Shown piece by piece: positions 4,383 to 27,851 of a stretch of 64,000 nt of DNA. Position numbers and translations under genes: made by a program. The notes beneath the pieces were generated by a model that made no database searches, had not been told where the DNA came from, and saw nothing but the letters and a program-made list of their open reading frames with translations. This DNA comes from Hypericibacter terrae. GTDB lineage: Bacteria > Pseudomonadota > Alphaproteobacteria > Dongiales > Dongiaceae. The stretch lies in contig NZ_CP042906.1 of the NCBI RefSeq assembly GCF_008728855.1, positions 4,019,570-4,083,569 of the forward strand, in the 5' to 3' direction. Each line of letters begins with the position of its first letter. Position 1 is the stretch's first letter.

Positions 4383-5438
4383 TCACCTGGCCTTGCGCCG
4401 AAGGCCGCGCTCCAGCGAGGCCAGCAGCTTCTCGCGCATCAGCAGCAGGGCGAGGAGGATGACGGCGCCATAAATGACCGTGCGCCAGCCCTCCGCCATC
4501 TGCAGCGCGCCGATGATCGTGGAGATCGTGGTGAGGAGGATGGCGCCGCCGACCGTGCCGAGATAGGTGCCGCGACCGCCGAGGATCGAGGTGCCGCCGA
4601 CGACGACCGCGGCGATCGAGGGCAGCAGATAGGGCTGGCCCATCGTCAAGGTGGCGCCGCCCGCATAGCCCACCATCATGATGCCGGCGAGCCCGCTGCA
4701 GGCGCCGGCGATCGCATAGGTCGCGATCGTCAGGCGGCGCACGCCGATCCCGGCGATATAGGCGGCGCCGTCGCTGGTGCCGATGGCGTAGAGCTTGCGG
4801 CCGAAGGGCGTTCTCGACTGCAGCAGCTGCCCGACGATCGCGGCCAGCAGCATGAAGAAAATCACCAGCGGAATGCCGAACAGGCGGCCGGTATAGAGCG
4901 CCGAGAGCAGCGGCGAGGCCTGCCCCCGGGGGGTGCCTTGCGTAAAGCCGAGGCAGAGGCTGTAGACGATGATGCCGACCGCGAGCGTCATGATGAAGGG
5001 CGGCACCCGCAGCAGGGTGACGCCGATGCCGTTGACCATGCCGACGAAGGCGGTCACGAGCAGGATCGCAGGAATGCCCCAGAGCAGGGCCGGGCCGGAG
5101 GCGCCGATCCAGCTGAAGGTCAGGACGCCGCCGAAGGTCATGACCGAGGCGACCGAGAGATCCAGCCCGCCGAGCAGGATCACCAGCCCCTGGCCGAAGC
5201 CGATGATCATCACGAAGGAAGAGAGCACCAGAATGGCCTGCGCCATGTTCAAGCCGCCGAAGGCCGGGCTGATGACCCGCGACGCCAGGATCAACGCGAT
5301 GCTGATGGCGAAGACTGCGATCGTGGTCCAGGTCTCGCTGCTGGCCCCGCCAAGCCGGAGTCCCGACCGCTTCTCCATCGGGGGCTCGGTCATGGCGGCC
5401 TCGGGCTCGATCGGCTTCTTGAGATTGAAGGCCGTCAT
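4383..5438 (-). CDS. Sugar-type ABC transporter permease (second)
   Basis: A 351-residue RbsC-like (BPD_transp_2) inner-membrane permease with about 10 hydrophobic segments after a hydrophilic N-terminus of about 35 residues. Family motifs include GGLDLSVASVM, which faces the binding protein and ATPase in this family, and GGTSILGGRGTYLGTVGGA near the C-terminus. The start codon at 5438 overlaps the stop of the preceding permease gene as ATGA, which supports this start over a later Met in the same frame. It should form a heterodimeric channel with the other permease. A 172-bp gap separates it from the binding-protein gene. Confidence 0.9.
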   Translation of the reverse strand: MTAFNLKKPIEPEAAMTEPPMEKRSGLRLGGASSETWTTIAVFAISIALILASRVISPAFGGLNMAQAILVLSSFVMIIGFGQGLVILLGGLDLSVASVMTFGGVLTFSWIGASGPALLWGIPAILLVTAFVGMVNGIGVTLLRVPPFIMTLAVGIIVYSLCLGFTQGTPRGQASPLLSALYTGRLFGIPLVIFFMLLAAIVGQLLQSRTPFGRKLYAIGTSDGAAYIAGIGVRRLTIATYAIAGACSGLAGIMMVGYAGGATLTMGQPYLLPSIAAVVVGGTSILGGRGTYLGTVGGAILLTTISTIIGALQMAEGWRTVIYGAVILLALLLMREKLLASLERGLRRKAR

Positions 5439-6442: not shown

Positions 6443-7969
6443 CTACTCCGCAGCCTCGGCGGCATGACCGGTCGCCAGCGCCACCAGCGCCTGCTCCGAG
6501 AAGGCGGCGCGATCGAGCACGCCGATCACCGAGCCGCGATAGATCACCAGGCAGCGGTCGCAGAGGCTGACCAGCTCGGGAATCTCGGTCGAGTAGATCA
6601 GGACCGAGCCACCCTGCCCGGCGAAGCGCCGGATCGCGCCGTAGATCACCTGCTTGGTTCCCACATCGACGCCGCGGGTCGGATCGAACATGGCGAGGAT
6701 CTGCGCACCCGACAGCAGGACGCGGCCGATCAGGGCCTTCTGCTGGTTGCCGCCCGAGAGCACCGAGAGGCGCGCATCGAGATATCGTTCCGGCAGATCC
6801 ACGACCTGCGCCTGGGCCCCGACGCCGGCGCGCTCCTGGGCCCGGTCGACCAATCCGAGATGTCCCAGCCGGTCGATGATCGACAGCGAGATGTTGGCGC
6901 TGGTGCTCATGCCGAGGAACACGCCCTCGGTCTTGCGCTCTTCGGGCACGAAGGCGATGCCCGGACCGCAGCGCAAGGCGTCGGCCGGCGAGTGCAGCCG
7001 AACCGGCTTTCCGGCCACCTCGATCCCGCCGCCCTCGATCCGCTCGATGCCGACCAGGGCGCGAAAGAGATCGCGCTGGCCCTGTCCCTCGAGCGCCGCG
7101 ACTCCCAGGATCTCGCCCTGATGCAGATCGAAGCTGACGCCGCGAATGTTGCGGCAGGTGAGGCCCGCGGCGCGCAGGGCCACCGGCCCCGCCAGCTTGG
7201 CGGCGGCCTTCCGGCTCGCACCCTCGGGTGCCGTGCCAACCATCATCCGGAAGATCTCGGAATCGCGCGTGGCCGTCAGGTCGACCGTGGCGATGCTGCG
7301 GCCATTGCGCAGGATCGTGCCCTGCCGGCAGAGGCGACGCACTTCCGAGAGGCGATGCGAGATATAGAGGATGGCGCAGCCTTCGCCCCGCAACCGGTCG
7401 ATCAGGGAAAAGAGCCATTCCGGCTCCGCCAGCGCCGCGGTCGGTTCGTCGAGGATCAGAAGGCGCGGCCGCCGGCTGACGGCGCGCACGATCTCCACCC
7501 GCTGTTTCTCGGCCAGCGACAGCGTGCCGACCAGCGCCGTGGGCGCGATGTCCGAGGCCCCATAGGCGCCGAGAATTTCCCGCGCCCTGGCGATCGATCG
7601 ACGTGCGGACACGAGGCCGAACGCGTTGCGCGGCGGCGAGGGCAGCATCAGGTTGGCCGCCACCGTCAGATTCGGCAGCAGGCTCAACTCCTGGAAGGCC
7701 GTCGAGACGCCGAGCGCCCGGGCCATCGTCAGGCTGCGCGGACGGAAGGGCTGGCCTTCGAGGGTCACGCTGCCGCCGTCGGGCTCGACCACGCCGCTCA
7801 GAATCTTCACCAGCGTGGATTTGCCGGCACCATTTTCCCCGAGCAGCGCATGGGCCTCGCCGCGAGCGACGGAGAGCGACACGCCGGCCAGCGCCACCGT
7901 CGCGCCATAGGCCTTGGTCGCGTCGCGCACCGCCAGCACGATATCGGCCGGGCTCGCGGGCGGGTTCAT
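6443..7969 (-). CDS. Sugar-type ABC transporter ATP-binding protein (tandem ABC domains)
   Basis: A 508-residue tandem ATPase of the RbsA/MglA type. The N-terminal domain is complete: Walker A GENGAGKST (44-52), an LSLAEKQ signature (about 150-156), Walker B LLILDEP (170-176) and H-loop H205. The C-terminal domain has a degenerate Walker A (ALEGQGQRD, 292-300), a good LSGGNQQK signature (404-411) and an altered Walker B: ILAMFDPTRG instead of the usual LDEPTRG. One composite ATP site therefore probably has low or no hydrolysis. Its ATG overlaps the stop of the upstream dehydrogenase gene as ATGA. It energises import by the two permeases. Confidence 0.93.
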   Translation of the reverse strand: MNPPASPADIVLAVRDATKAYGATVALAGVSLSVARGEAHALLGENGAGKSTLVKILSGVVEPDGGSVTLEGQPFRPRSLTMARALGVSTAFQELSLLPNLTVAANLMLPSPPRNAFGLVSARRSIARAREILGAYGASDIAPTALVGTLSLAEKQRVEIVRAVSRRPRLLILDEPTAALAEPEWLFSLIDRLRGEGCAILYISHRLSEVRRLCRQGTILRNGRSIATVDLTATRDSEIFRMMVGTAPEGASRKAAAKLAGPVALRAAGLTCRNIRGVSFDLHQGEILGVAALEGQGQRDLFRALVGIERIEGGGIEVAGKPVRLHSPADALRCGPGIAFVPEERKTEGVFLGMSTSANISLSIIDRLGHLGLVDRAQERAGVGAQAQVVDLPERYLDARLSVLSGGNQQKALIGRVLLSGAQILAMFDPTRGVDVGTKQVIYGAIRRFAGQGGSVLIYSTEIPELVSLCDRCLVIYRGSVIGVLDRAAFSEQALVALATGHAAEAAE

Positions 7970-13729: not shown

Positions 13730-15112
13730 ATGAAACGATTCTCCCTCCTCTGCCTGGTCCTCCTGCTCGCCGGCTGCGCCACCCATGGCGCGGTGGTGAC
13801 GGGTTCGGCCAGCTATCGCGAGCGGATGGCGCTGCTGCCGGGCACGGTGCTGGAAGCGACGCTGGAGGATGTGTCGAAGGCCGACGCGCCTGCCGTCATC
13901 GTCGGCCAGACCCGGCTGGAGGATCTGGGAAACCCGCCCTTCGATTTCGCGATTCCCTACAACCCCAAGGACATCGTGACCAACCACACCTATGTGGTGC
14001 GGGCGCGGATCCTGTCGGGCACCGACGTGCTGTTCGTCACCGACACCGCCTACCCGATCCTGACCATGGCCCATAAAGGCCCCGCGAAGCTGCTGCTGGT
14101 GCGCGCGGCCGGAGGTGCGGCGGCCGGGAGCGCCGGCGTCGATCCCAATATCGGCACGCTGCCCGCGCGCTTCGCCGGTGAGATTCCCTGCGCCAATTGC
14201 TCGGCCATTCGCTATCAGGTCGATCTCCTGCCCGATCAGTTGTTTTTCTCGCGCATGGTCTATGAGGGCCGCCAGACGGTCCATGACGAGATCGGCAACT
14301 GGTCGGTCCCGCCGGAGGGCGGCCGTCTGGTGCTGACGCCCGAGACCGGCGAGCCGACGCAATTCTCGCTGCCGACGGCCGGTCACCTGCGTATGCTCGA
14401 CCGGACCGGCAAGGAGATCGATTCGAAGCATAATTACGAGCTGGTGCGCGACGACAAGCTCGCCGCCCTCGACCCCGCGGCACCGCTCGCGGGCATGTAT
14501 GCCCAGGGCGACGATGGCGGAATCTTTACCGAATGCAGCACCGGCATGAAGCTCGCCGTGTTGAAGGAGGACGACAATGCGGCGCTAGAGGCGGCCTACA
14601 ACAAGATGCCGCACGAGCCGGGGCAGCCGCTCAAGGTCGAGCTCGAGGGCCGCATCTCGCTGACGCCGCCGGCCGGCACCGGGGGCGATCTGCCGGTCAT
14701 CTCGGTCATGCGGTTCAACTATATCTGGCCGGGCGAGACCTGCGGCCAGCGCTTCGCCACCTCGCCGCTCGAGAACAGCTACTGGAAGCTCACGCGCGTC
14801 GCCTATCAGCCGATCGTCCTGGCCCCGGGACAGCGCGAGCCCTATCTCGTGCTCCAGGCCCAGGACCGCAGGCTTACCGGCTATGCCGGCTGCAACCGCA
14901 TGACCGGCAGCTACACGCTCAAGGAGAACGAGCTGCGCTTCAGCCAGACCGCCACCACCAAGATGGCCTGCGTCAAGGGCATGGACACGGAAAGCGAGTT
15001 CCTCAAGGCCCTCGACGAGGTCCGCCAGTGGCACATCGACGGCGAGCATCTGACGCTCTCGAACGAGTATGGCGCGGTGCTGGCGGTGTTCGAGGCGGTG
15101 GCGCTGCCGTAG
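13730..15112 (+). CDS. Three-domain envelope lipoprotein (YbaY-NlpE-META)
   Basis: A 460-residue lipoprotein. A lipoprotein signal peptide ends in the lipobox LLAGC with Cys16. Residues about 25-115 match a YbaY-type beta domain (LPGTVLEATLEDVS, then PPFDFAIPY). Residues about 140-240 match NlpE (GEIPCANCSAIRYQVDL, with the CxxC pair C154/C157). The C-terminal part from about residue 340 is a META/HslJ domain (YWKLTRV, GYAGCNRMTGSY, FSQTATTKMAC). These modules are usually separate proteins linked to envelope stress and metal or surface sensing. The protein is expected to be anchored in the outer membrane and face the periplasm. Confidence 0.88.
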   Translation: MKRFSLLCLVLLLAGCATHGAVVTGSASYRERMALLPGTVLEATLEDVSKADAPAVIVGQTRLEDLGNPPFDFAIPYNPKDIVTNHTYVVRARILSGTDVLFVTDTAYPILTMAHKGPAKLLLVRAAGGAAAGSAGVDPNIGTLPARFAGEIPCANCSAIRYQVDLLPDQLFFSRMVYEGRQTVHDEIGNWSVPPEGGRLVLTPETGEPTQFSLPTAGHLRMLDRTGKEIDSKHNYELVRDDKLAALDPAAPLAGMYAQGDDGGIFTECSTGMKLAVLKEDDNAALEAAYNKMPHEPGQPLKVELEGRISLTPPAGTGGDLPVISVMRFNYIWPGETCGQRFATSPLENSYWKLTRVAYQPIVLAPGQREPYLVLQAQDRRLTGYAGCNRMTGSYTLKENELRFSQTATTKMACVKGMDTESEFLKALDEVRQWHIDGEHLTLSNEYGAVLAVFEAVALP

Positions 15113-15123
15113 AGGTTCTTTTC

Positions 15124-15232
15124 TTATCTCCTCCCCCCTCGAGGGGGAGGATTAAGGAGGGGGCTGCTCGTTGTCTGAAATCGCGTCTTCCCCCTTCCTA
15201 ACCTTCCCCCCGAGGGGGAAGGGAAAAGAAGA
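15124..15232. repeat. Two GC-rich palindromic repeats
   Basis: Two consecutive copies of the dispersed element lie here (CCCCCCTCGAGGGGGAGG, then CCTTCCCCCCGAGGGGGAAGG), each a hairpin, between the convergent lipoprotein and metallo-hydrolase genes. They could serve as bidirectional terminators. Confidence 0.6.
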
Positions 15233-15240
15233 GGATCGAT

Positions 15241-16029
15241 CTAGCCTCGCTTCTCCCACCGCGCGAGTTGCTCGTCGACCAGCTCGACCAGGCGATCGCG
15301 ACCGAAGCTCGGCTCGTGGCCCGCGTGAATCGTCCTCGCCGGCACGGCGCGCAGGCGGCGGAGCGTGCGGATGTAATCGGGCAGGCTCGAATGGTGGAGA
15401 TTGTCGATGAGCGGGCCGTCATAGATCGCGTCGCCGGAAAACAGCGTCCCGGTCTTTTGCTCCCAGAGGCCGATCGAGCCCGGCGAATGGCCGGGCAGAT
15501 GCAGCACCTCGAAGGCCCGGTCGCCGAGATCGACCCTGTCCCCCTCCTCGACCACGCGGATCTTGCCCGTGGGGCGGATGCGGAAGCTCTGGATGTCGTA
15601 GTCCGCCGTGGGCAGGGCCGTGATCATCGGGCCCTCGATCTCGTAGTCGGGCACCGGCGGAATGCGCAGCGTCGCCATGTCCTCGGGATCGAAATCGGGA
15701 TCGGCCAGGGTGTAGTCGCCGGCGGCCGAGCGCAGCCCCTCGGCCTCGAGCGCATGCGCGATGCAATCCTCGAACTCGTGATGGCCGCCGATATGGTCGA
15801 TATGGGCGTGGGTGGCGACGGCCGTCACCGGCTTGTCGAGGATGTCCTTGGCGAAATCGCGCAAGGAGCAGATGCCCATGCCGGTATCGACGATCAGGTC
15901 GCGGTCCCGGCCCCGCACATGCCAGATGTTGCAGCGCAGGAGCGGCGCCACATGCGGCTCCCAGAGGAAGGTGATGCCGTCACCGAGGCGACGCAACTCG
16001 AACCAGTGATCGGCAACCTGCAAGCCCAC
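15241..16029 (-). CDS. Metallo-beta-lactamase fold hydrolase
   Basis: A 262-residue MBL-fold enzyme. The metal ligands are complete: H74, H76, D78 and H79 in THAHIDHIGG, H181 (LPGHSPGS), D200 (FSGDAIYD) and H238 (HAGHEP). No secretion signal is visible, so it is probably a cytoplasmic hydrolase of the glyoxalase II / lactonase type. It follows the NCS1 permease by 47 bp on the same strand. I infer that it hydrolyses the compound imported by that permease or a product of it; the exact bond is unknown. Confidence 0.9.
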   Translation of the reverse strand: MGLQVADHWFELRRLGDGITFLWEPHVAPLLRCNIWHVRGRDRDLIVDTGMGICSLRDFAKDILDKPVTAVATHAHIDHIGGHHEFEDCIAHALEAEGLRSAAGDYTLADPDFDPEDMATLRIPPVPDYEIEGPMITALPTADYDIQSFRIRPTGKIRVVEEGDRVDLGDRAFEVLHLPGHSPGSIGLWEQKTGTLFSGDAIYDGPLIDNLHHSSLPDYIRTLRRLRAVPARTIHAGHEPSFGRDRLVELVDEQLARWEKRG

Positions 16030-16076
16030 GATCGGTCATCCTCTTTCATGACGGGCGTCCCCGCGCGACCGGACGC

Positions 16077-17474
16077 TCAGGCCTTGGCAATCTCGCGTCC
16101 GGCCAGCATCCAATAGAGCAGGCCGGACACCACCAGCCCCGCGACGATACTGAGGTCGGCGCCGCCGAGCACGTTCTCGGCGAAGGGCGATTTCAGCATG
16201 TCGGCCGAGGTGCAGGCCAGTGCCGCGATCACGCCGGCAATCCACGCGATGAAGGCGGCGCGGTGCCAGCCATTGGCGTAGCGGTAACGCCCGCCCTCCG
16301 CCGACAACAGGCTGGCGCCATCATAACGGCCGCGCCGCAGCCAGATGTCGATGGCATAGATGGCGCACCAGGGCGCGATCCAGGCCACCATCAGCGAGAG
16401 GAAGGCGATGAAGGTGCTGGTGAAATCATAGAAGAAGATCGCATAGACCGAAGCGGCCGTCGCCAGCACCGCGTCGATCATGATCGCCTTGGGCCGCGAG
16501 ACATTGAGGCCCATCGCCAGCAGCGACATGCCCGAGCTATAGGTGTTGATGAAGTTGTTGGTGATCGACCCGCCGATCACCAGCAGCACGAAGAGCTTGA
16601 AGTACCAGGGTGCCAGAATTGGCGCAAAGCCGCCGATCGGATCGGTGAGATCGACCTCGCGGGCGGCCATATAGCCGATCCCGGTAATGATCACCGCCGG
16701 AATGAAGGAGCCGAGAAAGGTCCAGAAGGTGATCGCGGCGCCGCTGGCATTGCGCGGCAGGTAGCGCGTGTAGTCGGCGGCGCAGTTGGCGTAGCTGATC
16801 GGCATGGCAGCCACCAGGGTGAGCGCGATCAGGAAGGTGGGGATATCCGCGCCGGCCGGGGCCGCGGGGGCCGTGGCGGGAGCATAGCTCAGCACCTGCG
16901 GGATGAGGCCCAGCATCGCCAGACCCAGCGCCCAGGTGAAGATGCGCTGCATGAAGACGATGGTCGCATGGCCGAGAATGGCGACGCCGAAGGTGAAGAC
17001 GGCGAGCACGCCCAGCAGGATGGCCTTGCCCAGAACGCCCAGCGGAATGCCGAAGCCTTCGACCAGGGAATAGAGCGCGAAGGCGCCGAGCACGAGATTG
17101 ACCGCTTCCCAACCGACCGCGGTCAGCCAGGAGAGGAAGGACGGCACCGCGTTGCCCTTGCGGCCGAACGCGGCGCGGCTCACGACCAAGGTCGCGGTGC
17201 CGACACGAGCACCGGGGATTCCGTTATAGCCGATCAGCCAATAAAGCAGATTGCCGACGATCACGACGAGGAGCATCTGCCCCGTGGTGAGGCCCAGCAC
17301 CGCCAGAAGGCCGCCGACGATGATGTAGGTGAGAATGAGATTGGCGCCGGCCCAAACCCAGAAAAGCTCACGCGGATGGCCGCGGCGCTCGGAATCGGGA
17401 ATGAGGTTGATGCCGTTCTGTTCGACGGCGAAGGCCTGATTGGCTTCACCGGCCGCTTGTTCCGCTGTGACCAT
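16077..17474 (-). CDS. NCS1-family nucleobase:cation symporter
   Basis: A 465-residue inner-membrane permease with about 12 hydrophobic helices. Helix 1 and its surroundings read WVWAGANLILTYIIVGGLLA, typical of the CodB-like NCS1 branch, and helix 3 contains GIPGARVGTATLVVSRAAFG. It imports a purine, pyrimidine, hydantoin or related vitamin with a cation. It is divergent from the MerR-XRE-cupin regulator at 17709 across a 234-bp region with an inverted repeat, and it is followed by the metallo-hydrolase gene, giving a transport, hydrolysis and regulation module. Confidence 0.92.
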   Translation of the reverse strand: MVTAEQAAGEANQAFAVEQNGINLIPDSERRGHPRELFWVWAGANLILTYIIVGGLLAVLGLTTGQMLLVVIVGNLLYWLIGYNGIPGARVGTATLVVSRAAFGRKGNAVPSFLSWLTAVGWEAVNLVLGAFALYSLVEGFGIPLGVLGKAILLGVLAVFTFGVAILGHATIVFMQRIFTWALGLAMLGLIPQVLSYAPATAPAAPAGADIPTFLIALTLVAAMPISYANCAADYTRYLPRNASGAAITFWTFLGSFIPAVIITGIGYMAAREVDLTDPIGGFAPILAPWYFKLFVLLVIGGSITNNFINTYSSGMSLLAMGLNVSRPKAIMIDAVLATAASVYAIFFYDFTSTFIAFLSLMVAWIAPWCAIYAIDIWLRRGRYDGASLLSAEGGRYRYANGWHRAAFIAWIAGVIAALACTSADMLKSPFAENVLGGADLSIVAGLVVSGLLYWMLAGREIAKA

Positions 17475-17538
17475 GAGCTTTCTCCCGCGCTGGCATGGCT
17501 TATCCCGAGCGATGGTCGATCGGTCGCCAAACCTAAAA

Positions 17539-17577
17539 TTGACGGTGAAAGCTAAAGTCTGACTTTATTACTGTCAA
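17539..17577. promoter_or_regulatory. Inverted-repeat operator between permease and regulator genes
   Basis: TTGACGGT (17539-17546) and ACTGTCAA (17570-17577) are inverted arms with one mismatch, separated by an AT-rich 23-nt centre. They lie in the shared divergent promoter region of the NCS1 permease and the MerR-XRE-cupin regulator, where an autoregulatory site is expected. Confidence 0.55.
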
Positions 17578-17708
17578 TATAATAATGCCACGCGCGCCAG
17601 CCTGGCTATCGGTTGATTTGAGAAAACGAAGATCCCACAAACGCGGCTTGAGCGGGCCATTGTCTTGTGACACCAAGGCGTCTGGAATCAGGGAAGAATA
17701 GCGAATCG

Positions 17709-18524
17709 ATGGTTCGTCAGAGACGGAAAGCGGGCCTCCACCCGATCGGCGATGTTGCCGCCGCGGCTGGCGTCACCACCCAGACCATCCGGCTCTGGGA
17801 GAAACGCGGCCAGCTGAGCTCCACCCGCACCGACGGGGGACAGCGGCTATTCACGGGCGAGATGGTGAAGCGCGCCGCCGAGCTGGCGGCAGGATCGCGA
17901 CGCAGCCAGCACCATCAGGCCGCCCGGCCCGCCGCGTCGCCCGACATGATCGAGCTGGCCTCGACCGGCATGCGCATCCGGCGCGCGCGGATCGAGCATG
18001 GCCTGAGCCAGCAGGACGCGGCCAAACGGATCGGCATCTCGCGTTCCTTCCTCTCGACCGTCGAACGCGGCGAATCCGGCGTCTCGACCAAGGTTCTCGC
18101 CAAGATGGCGGATGCGTTCGGCATTGCCATGAGCGGCTTTGCCGTCGCCGCCGATCCGAAGAAGCGCGTGATGCGCGTGGCGGACCGCCCCCGAACGGTG
18201 CTGGCGGAAGGGGTGAGCTGGGAGGAACTGGTCGCACCCAGCAGTCACGATCTAGAGCCGGCGCTGCTGCATGTGCCGCGGGGACGGGGCAGCGGCGGCG
18301 TTTTCGTGCGGCCTGGCGAAAGTTTCGTCTTCGTGCTGGAAGGCACGCTCACCTTTCAGACCGGCGAACGGCTCGAGGAGTTCGTGCTCGGCAAGGGCGA
18401 CGCGATCGTGCTCGACGCCGGTGTCCCTTTCTCCTGGCGCAATGACGGCAAGGCGACGGCGACCGCCCTCTGGGTCGAGCTGATCGGGTCGGTCCGCAAG
18501 AAGGCCCCGGAGAAAAAGGGGTAA
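17709..18524 (+). CDS. Transcriptional regulator with MerR-type HTH, XRE HTH and cupin domains
   Basis: A 271-residue regulator with three recognisable parts. Residues about 10-50 resemble the MerR helix-turn-helix (IGDVAAAAGVTTQTIRLWEK, then GGQRLF). Residues about 85-140 are an XRE/Cro HTH (IRRARIEHGLSQQDAAKRIG, then SRSFLSTVERG). The C-terminal about 100 residues form a cupin sensor (PGESFVFVLEGTLTF, GDAIVLDAGVPFSWRN). XRE-cupin proteins commonly control catabolic or transport genes. The ATG at 17709 is preferred over a GTG 42 bp upstream because GGGAAG (17691) precedes it. It is divergent from the NCS1 permease, its likely target. Confidence 0.88.
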   Translation: MVRQRRKAGLHPIGDVAAAAGVTTQTIRLWEKRGQLSSTRTDGGQRLFTGEMVKRAAELAAGSRRSQHHQAARPAASPDMIELASTGMRIRRARIEHGLSQQDAAKRIGISRSFLSTVERGESGVSTKVLAKMADAFGIAMSGFAVAADPKKRVMRVADRPRTVLAEGVSWEELVAPSSHDLEPALLHVPRGRGSGGVFVRPGESFVFVLEGTLTFQTGERLEEFVLGKGDAIVLDAGVPFSWRNDGKATATALWVELIGSVRKKAPEKKG

Positions 18525-18543
18525 GATCGCCGCTGGAGCGTCC

Positions 18544-19047
18544 ATGGAGGCCACTCCGATGCAGCCCTGGCCCATTGCGCAAATGCTGATCCTTCTGGCC
18601 CTCGCCAATGGCACTCCGGTGTTCGCGAAGAAGATCCTGGATGGGCGGTTCTCCCGGCCGATCGACGGAGGCTTGCGTTTCTTCGACGGCCGCCCCCTGT
18701 TCGGCAGCTCGAAGACGATCCGCGGCGCCCTGCTGGCAATCCTGATGACAACCGCCGGCGCTCCGCTTATCGGGCTCGACTGGAAGATCGGCGTTCTCGT
18801 GGGCATTTTGGCCATGATAGGCGATCTGCTCTCGAGCTTCATCAAGCGGCGGCTTGGCATGGCCTCCAGCAGCCAGGCCAGCGGGCTCGATCAGTTTCCC
18901 GAGTGCCTGCTGCCCGTTCTGGCCTGTCGCGGCGCCTTGGCGCTGACGCTCCTGGATATCCTTGCGATCGTCCTGCTCTTCTTTGTCGGCGAGGTGCTGC
19001 TCTCGCGCCTGCTCTTCAGGTTCGGACTGCGCGATCGCCCCTATTAG
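18544..19047 (+). CDS. CDP-archaeol synthase (CarS)-like membrane protein
   Basis: A 167-residue protein with about four hydrophobic helices. It carries the CarS/DUF46-type motif at residues 40-61 (IDGGLRFFDGRPLFGSSKT, then IRG), a cytosolic GDLLSSFIKRRLG motif (93-105) and LDQFPE (115-120). In archaea CarS activates the glycerol diether lipid with CTP; bacterial members are related to CdsA-type cytidylyltransferases and mostly uncharacterised. A second Met at residue 6 is an alternative start. It lies 19 bp after the regulator gene. A lipid-nucleotide role is inferred from fold only. Confidence 0.8.
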   Translation: MEATPMQPWPIAQMLILLALANGTPVFAKKILDGRFSRPIDGGLRFFDGRPLFGSSKTIRGALLAILMTTAGAPLIGLDWKIGVLVGILAMIGDLLSSFIKRRLGMASSSQASGLDQFPECLLPVLACRGALALTLLDILAIVLLFFVGEVLLSRLLFRFGLRDRPY

Positions 19048-19074
19048 GCGTCATCCCGAGCGCGCCGCCCGAGC

Positions 19075-20040
19075 TCAGGTGCATTCGAGCCGGTGCAAGG
19101 TGATCTCCGGCGGACAATTGAGCCGCACGGGCAGGATGGAGGAGCCGACGCCGACCGAGGTATAGCCCGCCATATCGTGGTAGCTCCACGCTCCTGATCC
19201 CATCCAACGCGGCAAATGGGAATCGAGCGTAATCGGAAATGAGCCGGGCAGGCAGATCTGGCCGCCGTGAGTATGGCCACCGAGCAGAAGGTCGACGCCT
19301 GCATGGGCCGCCTGGCGATAGATCTCCGGCGTATGTGAAAGCAGAATGCAGCACTCGTTAGGCGGGACCGAAGCTGCAGCTTTCTCGATATTGTCCACTC
19401 TGAAATAGTGCGCATCGTCGATGCCTGCCAGATGGATGCGTCCGTCGCCGCGCTCGATCGGCACGGACTCGTTCAGCAGCATGCGGATACCCATCTCCTC
19501 CAGGCCCGGCACCATGCGGACCGTGTCGTGGTTGCCAAGCACGCCATAGACCGAGCCGTTGAGATGAGATCGCACCTGGGCCAGTCCTTCGAGCATGGCG
19601 TCGAAGGGGCCGAAGGTCCGGGCGCGAAAATCTCCCGTGAGGACGCAAAGATCGTAAGCGAGGCCCGGCAGCAGCTCGATCAGCCGGCGCATCGCGCCCT
19701 CGTTCATCTCCACATGCATGTCGCTGATCTGGAGGATGGTGAAACCGCCGAAGCTCTTCGGCAGGCGGCGCAGGCGGACCGGGTTCTCCCGGATCTCCAC
19801 CCGCTCGGCATTGCGCCGGGCCCGGCCATAGAGGCCCGTCAGCTGCAAGGCGAGACGAATGACCCAAGGCGCGGAATACCAGTTTTCGATATGGAAGAAA
19901 TTGAGGCCGCCGCCAAAGACGCGAACCTCGTGATCGGTCTCGATGCCGAGGCGCTGGCGCGCATGCAGCCGCCCAAGGCGCTTATCGAGCTTGTCGAGCA
20001 ACTCCGGCGGAATCGAGGACTGGTTTCCTGATGGTCTCAT
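19075..20040 (-). CDS. Calcineurin-like metallophosphoesterase
   Basis: A 321-residue phosphoesterase of the YaeI/YkuE type. All dimetal ligands are visible: D107 and H109 (SDMHVE), D137 (TGDF), N170-H171 (LGNHDT), H236 (LLSHTPE), and H256 and H258 (GGHTHGGQI). About 100 residues precede the catalytic domain and include a hydrophobic patch (WVIRLALQLTGL), which may bring it to the membrane. Family members remove phosphate from lipid A precursors, UDP-sugars or nucleotides. Convergent with the CarS-like gene, so a link to lipid metabolism is possible but unproven. Confidence 0.9.
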   Translation of the reverse strand: MRPSGNQSSIPPELLDKLDKRLGRLHARQRLGIETDHEVRVFGGGLNFFHIENWYSAPWVIRLALQLTGLYGRARRNAERVEIRENPVRLRRLPKSFGGFTILQISDMHVEMNEGAMRRLIELLPGLAYDLCVLTGDFRARTFGPFDAMLEGLAQVRSHLNGSVYGVLGNHDTVRMVPGLEEMGIRMLLNESVPIERGDGRIHLAGIDDAHYFRVDNIEKAAASVPPNECCILLSHTPEIYRQAAHAGVDLLLGGHTHGGQICLPGSFPITLDSHLPRWMGSGAWSYHDMAGYTSVGVGSSILPVRLNCPPEITLHRLECT

Positions 20041-20148
20041 GCCCCGGCCCTAGGCGGCGAAGGGCCCAGATTGCACTCGCGACCTCGCGTCCGTCGAGTA
20101 CCGCGCAAGAAGGTGCCCGATAATAAGGGCCGGCCTCCCTATCGCCGG

Positions 20149-20277
20149 TCATGCTTCGCCTTTGGTTTCTCCGGGCTGGTTGGCGCGACGATCGGCGTCG
20201 AGCTCGAACCACATCGCGTTCAGGATCGCGAAGGCACAAGCCAGGCCGAGGCCGAGGATCCAGGAAAAATACCACAT
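20149..20277 (-). CDS. cydX: Cytochrome bd oxidase small subunit CydX
   Basis: A 42-residue single-helix protein starting MWYFSWILGLGLACAFAILN, the hallmark CydX/YbgT sequence (W-Y-F-x-W-I-L-G), followed by a short acidic and basic tail. It follows cydB by 28 bp. CydX packs against the CydA haem site and is needed for a stable active oxidase. Confidence 0.93.
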   Translation of the reverse strand: MWYFSWILGLGLACAFAILNAMWFELDADRRANQPGETKGEA

Positions 20278-20305
20278 GATCGTTTGCTCCCTTGCCCGCC
20301 GAGGC

Positions 20306-21439
20306 TCAGTAGGCCGAATCCGAATGCTCGACATGCTCGCCCGACACCTTGCCGCGCATCACCCGATAGACCCAGGCGGTGTAGGCCAGGATGATCGGCA
20401 GGAAGATCGCCGCCGCGACCAGCATGACCGTGAGGGTGAGACGGCTCGAGGACGCGTCCCAGACCGTGAGGCTGGAGGCGGGATCGCTCGATGACGGCAT
20501 CAGGAACGGGAACAGGCTCAAGCCCGCCGTCGAGATGACGCCGAGGATGCCGACCGAGCTGGCGAGGAAACCCGCAAGGGGCTTCCGTACCCAGGCCATC
20601 AGCAGGGCCAGCGCCATGCCGGCGAATCCCAGGATCGGTGCCACCGCCATCCAGGGATGGCGGCCGTAATTGCCGAGCCAGGCGCCGGCCTCGCGCGTCA
20701 CCGTCTTGGCGAGCGGGTCGGAGGGCAGCGAGGGATCGATCGCCGAGGTGATGACGAAGCCGTCGAGCCGGGCGACCCAGAGGCCGCCGACCGCGAAGAG
20801 CAGGATCGCCGCCGCGGCCGCGATCATCGCGGCCTGGCGCGCGCGGGCCTGGACCACGCCATCGGTCTTGACCGAGAGCCAGCCGCCGCCCTGGGTTGCA
20901 ATGATCGAGAGGCTGAGCAGGCCGCAGAGCAGCCCGAAGGGCGAGAGCAGATCGAAGAATCCGAACTCGAAGCTCGCCCGCATCGAGGAGTCGAAGCGGA
21001 ACGGCACGCCCAGCAGGAGATTGCCGACGGCGACGCCGAAGACGATCGAGGGCACCAGCCCGCCGATGAAGAGCGCCGTGTCCCAGGCCGTACGCCAGCG
21101 GGTGTGCTCGAGCTTGGACCGGAACTTGAAACCGACCGGCCGCAGGATGAGGGCACCGAGGGTCAGGATCATGGCGATGTAGAAGCCGGAGAAGCTGATC
21201 GCGTAGAGCGGCGGCCAGGCGGCGAAGATCGAGCCGCCGCCGACGATGAACCAGACCTGGTTGCCTTCCCAGACCGGCCCGACCGTGTTGATGACGACAC
21301 GGCGCTCCATGTCGGTCCGGCCGACGATCGGAAGGAGGAAGGCCGAGCCCAGGTCGAACCCGTCCATGATGGCGAAGCCGATCAGCAGCACGCCCAGCAG
21401 CAGCCACCAGATCAGGCGCAGCGTTTCATAATCGAGCAT
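20306..21439 (-). CDS. cydB: Cytochrome bd ubiquinol oxidase subunit II
   Basis: A 377-residue integral membrane subunit with about 9 helices. The typical N-terminus (ETLRLIWWLLLGVLLIGFA) with the following MDGFDLG, the WEGNQVWFI stretch and the C-terminal MLVAAAIFLPIILAYT helix identify CydB. It forms the bd oxidase heterodimer with CydA, which oxidises ubiquinol and reduces oxygen without proton pumping. It lies 12 bp after cydA. Confidence 0.97.
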   Translation of the reverse strand: MLDYETLRLIWWLLLGVLLIGFAIMDGFDLGSAFLLPIVGRTDMERRVVINTVGPVWEGNQVWFIVGGGSIFAAWPPLYAISFSGFYIAMILTLGALILRPVGFKFRSKLEHTRWRTAWDTALFIGGLVPSIVFGVAVGNLLLGVPFRFDSSMRASFEFGFFDLLSPFGLLCGLLSLSIIATQGGGWLSVKTDGVVQARARQAAMIAAAAAILLFAVGGLWVARLDGFVITSAIDPSLPSDPLAKTVTREAGAWLGNYGRHPWMAVAPILGFAGMALALLMAWVRKPLAGFLASSVGILGVISTAGLSLFPFLMPSSSDPASSLTVWDASSSRLTLTVMLVAAAIFLPIILAYTAWVYRVMRGKVSGEHVEHSDSAY

Positions 21440-21451
21440 GGGGTTCCTCCC

Positions 21452-23053
21452 TCACCGCGCCGTCGCGACGCGGCGGCGCGTCGTCATGGGAGCCCGGCCG
21501 GGTGGCCGGGTGAGCCCGCCTGCCTCGCCAGTCTCGTCGATGATGGGCCCGCGTTTGACGTATTTGAGCATGAGGAACACGTCGACGACGGCGAGCGTCG
21601 AATAGAACAGGACGAATCCCAGCAGGCTGAACAGCACCTGGCCCGAATGGAGCGAGGAGGCGCCGAGGAAGGTCGGCAGCACGCCCTCGATGGCCCAGGG
21701 CTGACGTCCATATTCGGCGACGATCCAGCCGAACTCGGCGGCGACCCAGGGCAAAGGCAGGCTCCAGAGACAAATCCGCAGGAGCCAGTTGTAGCGGTCG
21801 AGCTGCCGGCGCGCCGAGAGATAGAAGGTCACGGCGAAGAGCGCGATGAAATAGAATCCGAGCCCCGCCATGAAACGGAAGGCCCAGAAGAGCGGCCCAA
21901 TGTCGGGCACGGTCGACCAGGCCGCCTGGTCGATCTGGTCGGGCGTGGCATTGGCGATATCGTCGGTATAGCGCTTGAGCAGCAGCGCATAGCCGAGATC
22001 GGGACTGTGCATCGCGAAGGCCGCCTTGGCCTCCTCGTTGCCGCGATCGGCCCGCAGGGTCTGCAGCGCCGTATAGGCAGGAATGCCGTTCTGGATGCGT
22101 CCCTTCGCGTCCTCCACCAGCTCGAAGATGCCGGGGATCGGCGTGTCGAAGCTGCGCGTGGCGATGATTCCCAGGAGCCAGGGGATCTTGATCTCGGCAT
22201 GGGTGACGCGCGCTTCGCGGTCGGGGATGCCGAAGGCCGCAAAGGAGGCTGGCGCTGGCTCGGTGTGCCACATGCTCTCGATCGCCGCGATCTTCATCTT
22301 CTGATTGGCGGTCGCCGTATAGCCGCTCTCGTCGCCCAGCACCACGACCGAAAGCGCCGAAGCGAGGCCGAAGCTGGCCGCCACGGTCATGGAGCGTTTC
22401 GCGAACTCGACATGGTTGCGCCGGAGCAGATAGAAGGCGGCGATCGCCAGCACGAAGATCGAGCCGGTGACATAGCCGGCGCTGACCGTATGGACGAACT
22501 TCGCCTGGGCCACGGGATTGAACATGACCTCGCGGAACGAGGTCAGCTCCATGCGCATGGTCTCGTAGTTGAACTTGGCACCCACCGGATTCTGCATCCA
22601 GGCATTGGCGATCAGGATCCAGAGAGCCGAGAAATTGCTGGCGATGGCGACGGCCCAGGTGACGATCAGATGGCCGAGCTTGGAGAGCCGGTCCCAGCCG
22701 AAGAAGAAGAGGCCGATGAAGGTGGCCTCGAGGAAGAAGGCCATCAGACCTTCGATCGCGAGGGGGGCACCGAAGATGTCGCCGACGTAATGCGAGTAAT
22801 AGGCCCAGTTGGTGCCGAACTGGAACTCCATGGTGATGCCGGTCGCGACACCCATGGCGAAGTTGATGCCGAAGAGGAGCCCCCAGAACTTCGTCATCTC
22901 GCGCCAGATGGTGCGCCCGGTCATGACATAGACGCTCTCCATGATGGCGATCAGGACGGAGAGGCCGAGCGTCAGCGGCACGAACAGGAAGTGATAGAGG
23001 GCCGTGAGCGCGAACTGCAGCCGCGACAACTCGACCAGACCGCTATCGATCAT
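21452..23053 (-). CDS. cydA: Cytochrome bd ubiquinol oxidase subunit I
   Basis: A 533-residue haem-carrying subunit. Haem ligands align with H21 (YHFLFVPLTLG), H188 (KFVHTVSAG) and M395 (FRFMAGLGF). E101 and E109 of the proton path are present (AIEGLMAFFLEATF), and the quinol-site motif GRQPW (449-453) is followed by AIEGVLPT. Length and motif fit true bd oxidases rather than the short cyanide-insensitive type, although only biochemistry separates them firmly. The ATG overlaps the stop of cydP as ATGA. High oxygen affinity suggests use under low aeration or nitrosative stress. Confidence 0.97.
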   Translation of the reverse strand: MIDSGLVELSRLQFALTALYHFLFVPLTLGLSVLIAIMESVYVMTGRTIWREMTKFWGLLFGINFAMGVATGITMEFQFGTNWAYYSHYVGDIFGAPLAIEGLMAFFLEATFIGLFFFGWDRLSKLGHLIVTWAVAIASNFSALWILIANAWMQNPVGAKFNYETMRMELTSFREVMFNPVAQAKFVHTVSAGYVTGSIFVLAIAAFYLLRRNHVEFAKRSMTVAASFGLASALSVVVLGDESGYTATANQKMKIAAIESMWHTEPAPASFAAFGIPDREARVTHAEIKIPWLLGIIATRSFDTPIPGIFELVEDAKGRIQNGIPAYTALQTLRADRGNEEAKAAFAMHSPDLGYALLLKRYTDDIANATPDQIDQAAWSTVPDIGPLFWAFRFMAGLGFYFIALFAVTFYLSARRQLDRYNWLLRICLWSLPLPWVAAEFGWIVAEYGRQPWAIEGVLPTFLGASSLHSGQVLFSLLGFVLFYSTLAVVDVFLMLKYVKRGPIIDETGEAGGLTRPPGRAPMTTRRRVATAR

Positions 23054-23301
23054 GGGCGCACCTCGTCAGACGGGGTTGGCAGGGAAACGGATGAGGGGGC
23101 AGAGCCCGTGCCGGCAGGAGCCGGCCCGATCAGGGTCTCGCTGACGCGTTCGGCGTCGATCGTGGGGCGCTGCGAGGGGCTGAAGAAAAGCGCATAGATG
23201 ACCCCCAGGGCCACCAGCTTCAGGGTCAGCGCCACCGCGATCTCCCGGGCCGGGCCCCGGGCCCTGGTCGGTCGTCCAGCATCGCCGCGTCGGGACTGCA
23301 T
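23050..23301 (-). CDS. cydP: Cytochrome oxidase small subunit CydP
   Basis: An 83-residue protein with a basic N-terminus and one membrane helix (REIAVALTLKLVALGVIYAL then FFSP), matching the CydP family encoded next to cydAB in many proteobacteria. The tail is Pro/Ser-rich. The start at 23301 (MQSRRGD) is preferred to longer forms because the family begins shortly before the conserved AREIA segment. It overlaps cydA by 4 nt and is the first gene of the cydPABX operon. Confidence 0.8.
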   Translation of the reverse strand: MQSRRGDAGRPTRARGPAREIAVALTLKLVALGVIYALFFSPSQRPTIDAERVSETLIGPAPAGTGSAPSSVSLPTPSDEVRP

Positions 23302-23487
23302 GGCTGGCTCCGGGTGGCTCAGGGGAGCGGTTCGGCGCTTCCGCAAGGGGGCTGCATTCGTTGCGGGCGAAGCATCCTCGATCCCGCGACGACTCAATTC
23401 AACAAATCATCGGTGTCTTTCCTGTTGCGGTCAACCGTAGGCCAGCGGCGGGGATGTCGCAGTGTGAAATCCTGTGAAAAATTGCGA

Positions 23488-27138: not shown

Positions 27139-27798
27139 TCAATAGCTGGGCGGCGTGATGGCCCAGATCACCACCGTCTCGATGGCGCCGGGATTGCGAT
27201 AGCGATGGGGCAGCGTGCTCTTGAAGGTGAAGCTGTCGCCTTCCCAGAGCCGGAAGCGCTTGGCGTTGATCCAGAGATCGAGCTGGCCGGCGATGACGAT
27301 GCCGGCCTCCTCGCCGATATGGGTGTAGGGCGCCTCGCCGCTGGTGGCACCCGGCGGGAAGCGGCTCAGCAGCAGCTCGAGCTGCCCGTCGAGATAGGGC
27401 GTCAGCAGACTGTCGGTGATGCCGTGGCTGTAATGGAGCGTGCGGCGCCGGTCGGCGCGCACGATGAAGTCGCGCTCCTCCTCGGGCCCCGGCGCGTTCT
27501 CGGCGAAGAACCAGCTGATGTTGACGCCGAGCGCCTTGCCGATGTCGTGCAGCGCGATGACGGATGGGTTGGAGAGGCCGCGCTCGATCTGGCTGAGGAA
27601 GCCGACCGAGAGGCCCGTCTTCTCGCCGAGCTCCTCCAGCGTCATGTCGCGGGCATGGCGCAGGCTGCGCACCTCGCGGCCCAGATGATGCGAGAGCTCG
27701 CCGCTGCTGCCGGGAGCGGGCTCGCCGGGCAGCAGCTTGGAGGCGCGGATCATGCGCCGGTTGGCATTCGCCGAGGTCTTCTGGGCTCTCCCCGCCAT
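27139..27798 (-). CDS. XRE-family regulator with C-terminal cupin sensor
   Basis: A 219-residue regulator with an XRE helix-turn-helix (VRSLRHARDMTLEELGEKTG, then LSVGFLSQIERGLSNPS) followed by a cupin (YTHIGEEAGIVIAGQLDLWI, later WEGDSFTFKSTLPHRYRN). The PuuR-like layout is typical of repressors of amine and amino-acid catabolism. The start at 27798 (MAGRAQ) is chosen because an upstream in-frame ATG would place coding sequence over the inverted repeat at 27821. It heads the unit with the aldehyde dehydrogenase and flavin oxidoreductase genes and probably represses it. Confidence 0.9.
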   Translation of the reverse strand: MAGRAQKTSANANRRMIRASKLLPGEPAPGSSGELSHHLGREVRSLRHARDMTLEELGEKTGLSVGFLSQIERGLSNPSVIALHDIGKALGVNISWFFAENAPGPEEERDFIVRADRRRTLHYSHGITDSLLTPYLDGQLELLLSRFPPGATSGEAPYTHIGEEAGIVIAGQLDLWINAKRFRLWEGDSFTFKSTLPHRYRNPGAIETVVIWAITPPSY

Positions 27799-27820
27799 AT
27801 CGAGCGGCAGGCTAGTGCCG

Positions 27821-27851
27821 CCGGTGAAAATTATCAAAAAACTTTCACTGG
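27821..27851. promoter_or_regulatory. Inverted-repeat operator candidate for the XRE-cupin regulator
   Basis: CCGGTGAAA (27821-27829) and TTTCACTGG (27843-27851) are inverted arms with one mismatch around an AT-rich centre, 23 bp upstream of the regulator start. Such a site is expected for autoregulation of this minus-strand unit. It also lies in the region shared with divergent purB. Confidence 0.6.

Follow-up and report, generated by a model that had tools for sequence, protein, structure and literature searches.

XRE-cupin regulators form a large group, most of whose members are unstudied. A study of those of Pseudomonas retrieved 23,072 such sequences (PMC7901475). It describes the plain XRE-cupin proteins of P. 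aeruginosa as repressors that mostly act locally, that have palindromic motifs wherever a motif was derivable, and that are exchanged together with their neighbour genes. The regulator described below is encoded in a 64,000-nt stretch of the Hypericibacter terrae genome (the window, at its full length). Like ErfA, PsdR and PauR of Pseudomonas (PMC7901475), it has an XRE helix-turn-helix (HTH) followed by a C-terminal cupin and adjoins genes for uptake and metabolism, and a palindromic operator is proposed for it. Unlike these two-domain regulators, it carries an extra N-terminal MerR winged helix and has its cupin motif histidines replaced. The N-terminal winged helix is shared with the MerR family (SoxR, CueR, and CarH), from which the window regulator differs in the second HTH and the cupin that follow the MerR domain, in the missing long dimerisation helix, and in the shortening of the domain itself. 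CarH consists of a MerR domain plus a ligand domain. Unnamed rhizobial proteins contain the same MerR, XRE, and cupin domains in the same order, with 26-32% identity to the window protein; they retain the cupin motif histidines and a complete MerR domain, whereas the window protein has neither, and several of their genes adjoin gabT or folD/purU/ETF genes rather than a gene for an NCS1 permease. The window protein is an XRE-cupin variant with an extra MerR fold, atypical of either family.

Domain architecture and fold of the regulator

The gene and its domains are as follows.

17667-18524 (+): open reading frame of the MerR-XRE-cupin regulator from an upstream GTG at 17667, 285 residues
17709-18524 (+): the same regulator from the likelier start, ATG 17709, 271 residues
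17745-17852 (+): MerR winged-HTH domain (Pfam PF00376, 1.4e-13; Foldseek; alignment)
17976-18134 (+): XRE domain (HTH_3; Pfam PF01381, 9.2e-19)
18264-18476 (+): cupin domain (Cupin_2; Pfam PF07883, 2.2e-12; alignment)

The regulator was counted as 271 residues because its conserved part starts past ATG 17709. The MerR, HTH_3, and Cupin_2 matches all exceeded the curated Pfam cut-offs, and the MerR fold was also recovered by structure comparison, which bears out the first-pass annotation of two distinct DNA-binding folds plus a cupin. When the first 79 residues were modelled alone with AlphaFold2, pLDDT block means were 86-91 for residues 11-60. The top PDB matches of this N-terminal model in Foldseek were MerR winged helices, and GlnR, SoxR, and CarH were within the first six, at E-values of 9e-4 to 3e-3, only one of which was below 0.001. 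A PDB sequence search with the regulator also matched CarH and GlnR (E 0.002-0.005); the WD40 designs at the top of that search were rejected as spurious. The full-length model was poor (pLDDT 64.4, pTM 0.35), and a Foldseek search with it gave cupin and XRE matches and no MerR protein among the best 50 rows.

The alignment indicated that the MerR domain of the window protein is shorter than that of its relatives, its second half having been lost. No long antiparallel dimerisation helix follows the winged helix in the Pfam matches or the alignment; a short linker leads directly to the XRE domain. A MerR domain shorter than that of the relatives would fit an evolutionary relic, or a domain serving protein contacts, within an otherwise ordinary XRE-cupin regulator. 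However, six residues of the winged helix (R28, W30, E31, R40, G44, and R46) are invariant in all 13 aligned members, and the fold modelled for residues 11-60 is intact, at the pLDDT given above, so that a merely residual MerR domain seems rather improbable.

In the cupin domain, Arg201 and Phe241 (271-residue numbering) replace the motif histidines in the window's group, which is represented by four rows of the alignment. This replacement, together with general knowledge of cupins, suggests that the pocket of the window regulator is probably metal-free.

Occurrence and relatives of the three-domain regulators

A profile of 13 MerR-XRE-cupin proteins gave matches that included the MerR part in at least 8 of 398 sampled Pseudomonadota genomes, the present one among them, a count that is a lower bound, with six candidates scored per genome. 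All eight genomes belong to one class, and the remaining matches listed for the profile begin at position 43 or beyond, mostly near 85. The class sample contributed an additional MerR-XRE-cupin case (L018). On plasmids, a tblastn search with the regulator returned 122 records, mostly from rhizobia and in a few cases from Actinobacteria, and query coverage reached 80% or more in 109 of these; among the 40 plasmid matches listed, 16 carried product names, and 14 of these read "MerR family transcriptional regulator". Within the 17 genomes of the order, the present genome was the only one with a regulator match at E 1e-20, and one further genome matched at E 1e-14, without the MerR part. The genome contig collection yielded no match when it was searched with the regulator protein alone; a three-row alignment retrieved two Embleya loci, as well as two loci having the MerR part only.

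The MerR-XRE-cupin architecture is a recurring minority, a family rather than a one-off. No description of it was found among the papers listed in searches of the open PubMed Central literature, and the window regulator's variant of the XRE-cupin family is apparently undescribed. The earlier view of a MerR HTH in front of an XRE-cupin protein as unusual is weakened by this recurrence. A branch with a second, different DNA-binding fold in one chain, present in two phyla and beside varied transporters and pathways, would offer a test of how operator specificity is gained by stacking domains. Two loci encode a longer protein of about 630 residues, a fusion in which a proline racemase domain (PF05544) joins the MerR, XRE, and cupin domains (L042:1471-3360, plus strand; L018:433-2328, minus strand), and no account of this four-part fusion was found in the open PubMed Central literature either.

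The nearest relatives found were actinobacterial, namely a protein of Arthrobacter sp. NicSoilB8 (39.8%) and three of Embleya (about 40%), with an identity to the window regulator of about 40-41% across almost the entire length. When a tree was built from the XRE-cupin part, the window regulator grouped with these closest relatives, with 100/100 support for window, L075, L076, and L081; the tree omitted L048, L082, L099, L100, and the copies of the window locus, and its plain XRE-cupin rows were taken from the matches of one search only. On this tree the architecture needs two changes, and one change suffices in 4% of 200 bootstrap trees; placing all MerR-XRE-cupin proteins in one clade was not rejected (AU p 0.348).

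The neighbouring permease and hydrolase

Three further features describe the surroundings of the regulator.

16077-17474 (-): NCS1 permease, divergent from the regulator (Pfam PF02133, 2.4e-48)
15241-16029 (-): MBL-fold hydrolase on the permease strand, 47 bp downstream of the permease (Pfam PF00753, 7.1e-22)
16035-23484: segment of 7.45 kb that the sister genome (the genus's other genome) lacks at this position (blastn)

The Pfam matches agree with the first-pass annotation, in which the regulator faces an NCS1 permease and an MBL hydrolase; the hydrolase gene lies behind that of the permease and outside 16077-18524. The permease covers profile positions 2-430 of the 440 of PF02133. No substrate subfamily was assigned to it, as its five NCBIfam matches all lay under their cut-offs. 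At E 1e-40 it matched the present genome only, both across 385 genomes of the class and among the 17 of the order, where another genome harbored a 33% relative (5e-38).

An NCS1 permease on the strand opposite to the regulator is present in the window and at the loci of the four closest relatives, the five together representing three lineages. The two genes are directly divergent in the window and lie 1.7 kb apart in Arthrobacter and 4.8-5.2 kb apart in Embleya, where, as in Arthrobacter, the permease sits at the far end of a gene cluster divergent from the regulator. Near 14 other MerR-XRE-cupin loci (L077-L079 and L090-L100), no NCS1 permease was detected at E 1e-3 within 4-5 kb, and two of these loci were still without one when the flanks were extended to 10 kb; the comparison is uneven, because flanks of 4 kb would also miss the Embleya permeases. 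The Arthrobacter and Embleya permeases are only 26-28% identical to that of the window, so that the shared partner is a family and not an ortholog. The permease might instead be a chance neighbour of a regulator that serves other genes, such as the downstream CarS-like gene or distant targets. The lack of orthology between the permeases, the distance of about 5 kb in Embleya, and the difference of the entire 7.45-kb segment from the sister genome, which may mean that its genes were joined by chance, would all agree with this. The recurrence of NCS1 near the four closest relatives and its absence from the flanks of the other 14 loci argue against it, as does the occurrence of the only exact copy of the palindrome described below in the regulator-permease intergenic region, and an unconnected permease is judged unlikely.

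The Arthrobacter cluster encodes a DUF1989 protein as well as a polysaccharide deacetylase, which matches the allantoinase PuuE weakly and below the cut-off. The Embleya cluster encodes a luciferase-like monooxygenase, a DUF1028 protein, an M20 protein that exceeds the ArgE/DapE deacylase cut-off, and an alpha/beta hydrolase. Among the sub-cut-off NCBIfam matches of this hydrolase, 3-oxoadipate enol-lactonases rank first and RutD is weaker. Judged by these family assignments, the clusters would fit the breakdown of a cyclic amide or ureide. The "nucleobase-like" compound proposed earlier fits the permease family and, weakly, some of these neighbours.

The evidence for the MBL hydrolase is mixed. 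When the plasmid collection was searched with the permease, the top match came from Streptomyces sp. NBC_01445 (37.5%); directly behind it lies an MBL gene with 46.7% identity to that of the window, and this was the one locus of ten fetched from that search in which such an MBL gene was present. On the other hand, each of the order's 17 genomes has MBL homologs at E 1e-50, in many cases more than one paralog, and around those of the order's other genera neither the oxidoreductase nor the permease was seen within about 1.5 kb. In the sister genome the MBL gene adjoins an NADH:flavin oxidoreductase gene, and MBL as a fixed partner of the regulator is not supported there; it ends a row of XRE-cupin, aldehyde dehydrogenase-like, and oxidoreductase-like genes. 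The permease-MBL pairing appears to recur without being fixed. The link of the regulator to an NCS1 permease, suggested earlier, is supported by its recurrence near the closest relatives. On an unannotated Streptomyces plasmid (L087), an MBL gene at 6458-7198 (plus strand) lies immediately behind an NCS1 permease gene, and the gene divergent from this pair is presumably TetR-like.

In the blastn comparison, window positions 16034 and 23485 matched positions 4922 and 4952 of the sister-genome locus L080. The segment between them has its borders at gene edges and contains the permease, the regulator, a CarS-like protein, a phosphoesterase, and two genes that we take to resemble cytochrome bd subunits. 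An interspersed repeat of about 100 bp lies at 15120-15233; when 13730-20040 was compared with the sister genome, 44 of the 50 matches listed overlapped this repeat, some of them being both strands of one place. The window also contains a second, plain XRE-cupin gene (27139-27837, minus strand), and the genes directly downstream on the same strand presumably encode an aldehyde dehydrogenase and an NADH:flavin oxidoreductase.

Candidate operators and proposed regulation

The intergenic region between regulator and permease contains the following sites.

17538-17578: wide inverted repeat, ATTGACGGT / ACTGTCAAT, 8 of 9 pairs, 23-nt centre
17553-17567: proposed operator inside the wide repeat, perfect 7-1-7 palindrome TAAAGTCTGACTTTA (TAAAGTC-T-GACTTTA)
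17559-17586 (+): promoter-like site for the regulator, CTGACT-16-AATAAT (consensus scan), overlapping the palindrome
17579-17608 (-): promoter-like site for the permease, TAGCCA-18-TATTAT (consensus scan)

The wide inverted repeat, given as 17539-17577 in the first-pass annotation, does exist with its 23-nt centre, but when the intergenic region was shuffled with dinucleotides preserved, 199 of 500 shuffles contained an equally good 9-nt repeat (centre 0-30 nt); being not above chance, it was rejected as an operator. Its arms hold two TTGAC hexamers face to face, which could equally be -35 boxes; the promoter scan listed neither of them. The one-base-centred palindrome within the repeat was equalled in 32 of 1000 shuffles at that centre and in 39 of 500 at centres of 0-4, and its score was reached by 36% of 300 shuffles when centres of 0-30 were admitted. 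Its only exact copy in the genome is that at 17553-17567. Up to two mismatches added one other place in the genome, and the pattern read backwards gave 7 forward matches; the site is therefore rare, yet not a repeated regulon motif. The palindrome is a mildly significant candidate and a stronger one than the wide repeat. The promoter consensus scan found 2 sites, compared with 0.1 expected. A terminator-like stem-loop is present in the regulator leader (17645-17658, plus strand; 1 found, 0.3 expected in shuffles).

The three Embleya species share an invariant block of 49 bases that contains a 19-bp palindrome, CATAGTTACAGTAACGATG (8 of 9 pairs), with a one-base centre like that of the window palindrome; taken alone, the Embleya palindrome was equalled in 54 to 88 of 500 shuffles. 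The Arthrobacter region had no palindrome above chance (478 of 500 shuffles as good).

With moderate confidence, a little above an even chance, the regulator is proposed to act as a local repressor that responds to a ligand, like other proteins of XRE-cupin type but with a MerR winged helix added at its N-terminus, and to control the permease and its own gene. A dimer would most likely bind at 17553-17567, the palindrome in the space separating the divergent genes, and block both promoters, thereby repressing the NCS1 permease and the regulator itself; the MBL hydrolase would also be repressed, by way of read-through from the permease. The DNA would be released when the presumably metal-free cupin binds a small molecule, probably the compound that is taken up or one derived from its breakdown, and the MerR helix would most likely add DNA contacts beside those of the XRE domain. 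Local repression and release by a ligand were proposed by analogy with XRE-cupin repressors (PMC7901475). This model is supported by the NCS1 permeases near the closest relatives, the single exact copy of the palindrome, its overlap with a promoter-like site, and the Embleya palindrome; it is weakened by the mild palindrome statistics, the Arthrobacter result, the permease identity of 26-28%, the unequal flanks, and the poor full-length model.

MerR proteins often activate, from operators in promoter spacers of 19-20 nt, and the window regulator may do so too. The MerR domain would then be the main DNA reader and would switch on the permease promoter by MerR-type twisting from an operator between the -35 and -10 elements, while the XRE domain would aid dimerisation or fine-tuning. 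The good Pfam score of the MerR domain is consistent with this, as is a perfect TTGACA on the minus strand (17577-17572), upstream of the permease, with most of the palindrome in the spacer that follows. However, the -10 candidate at 17-nt spacing (TAGCTT) is poor and the pair is missing from the promoter scan, the second half of the MerR domain is lost in the window protein, and the XRE-cupin proteins of P. aeruginosa repress (PMC7901475). Activation of this kind is accordingly regarded as unlikely, and repression through the palindrome is preferred.

Upstream of the regulators of the distant rhizobial subfamily, a 25-bp element with the consensus cTACATTTTTtCtGnAaGAatGCAA was found in all 8 discovery loci, in 7 by pattern and in the eighth by eye. 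Of 6 further loci outside the discovery set, 4 had it and two, L040 and L041, did not; some of these 6 are close kin of the discovery loci, and the choice of pattern was made with the discovery loci in view. For each locus, between 0 and 6 of 1000 shuffles contained the pattern, and a stricter one was found in 6 of the 8 discovery loci and 2 of the 6 further loci. The element has partial dyad symmetry, with 53% complementary pairs about its middle base, the best of all centres tried, and C-N-G stands at the dyad centre in the three groups examined. Tentatively, and with less than even probability, MerR-XRE-cupin proteins may be double readers, in which the MerR wing and the XRE helix of each protomer both touch an operator of about 15-25 bp with a one-base dyad, from which a ligand would release them; such a mode would fit the distant rhizobial subfamily with its 25-bp element. 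The proposed operators allow testing in vitro. The element was observed upstream of the regulators in L043, L045, L048, L091, L093, L095-L100, and L103, and in two of these loci, L091 and L093, the regulator is divergent from a 4-aminobutyrate transaminase gene.
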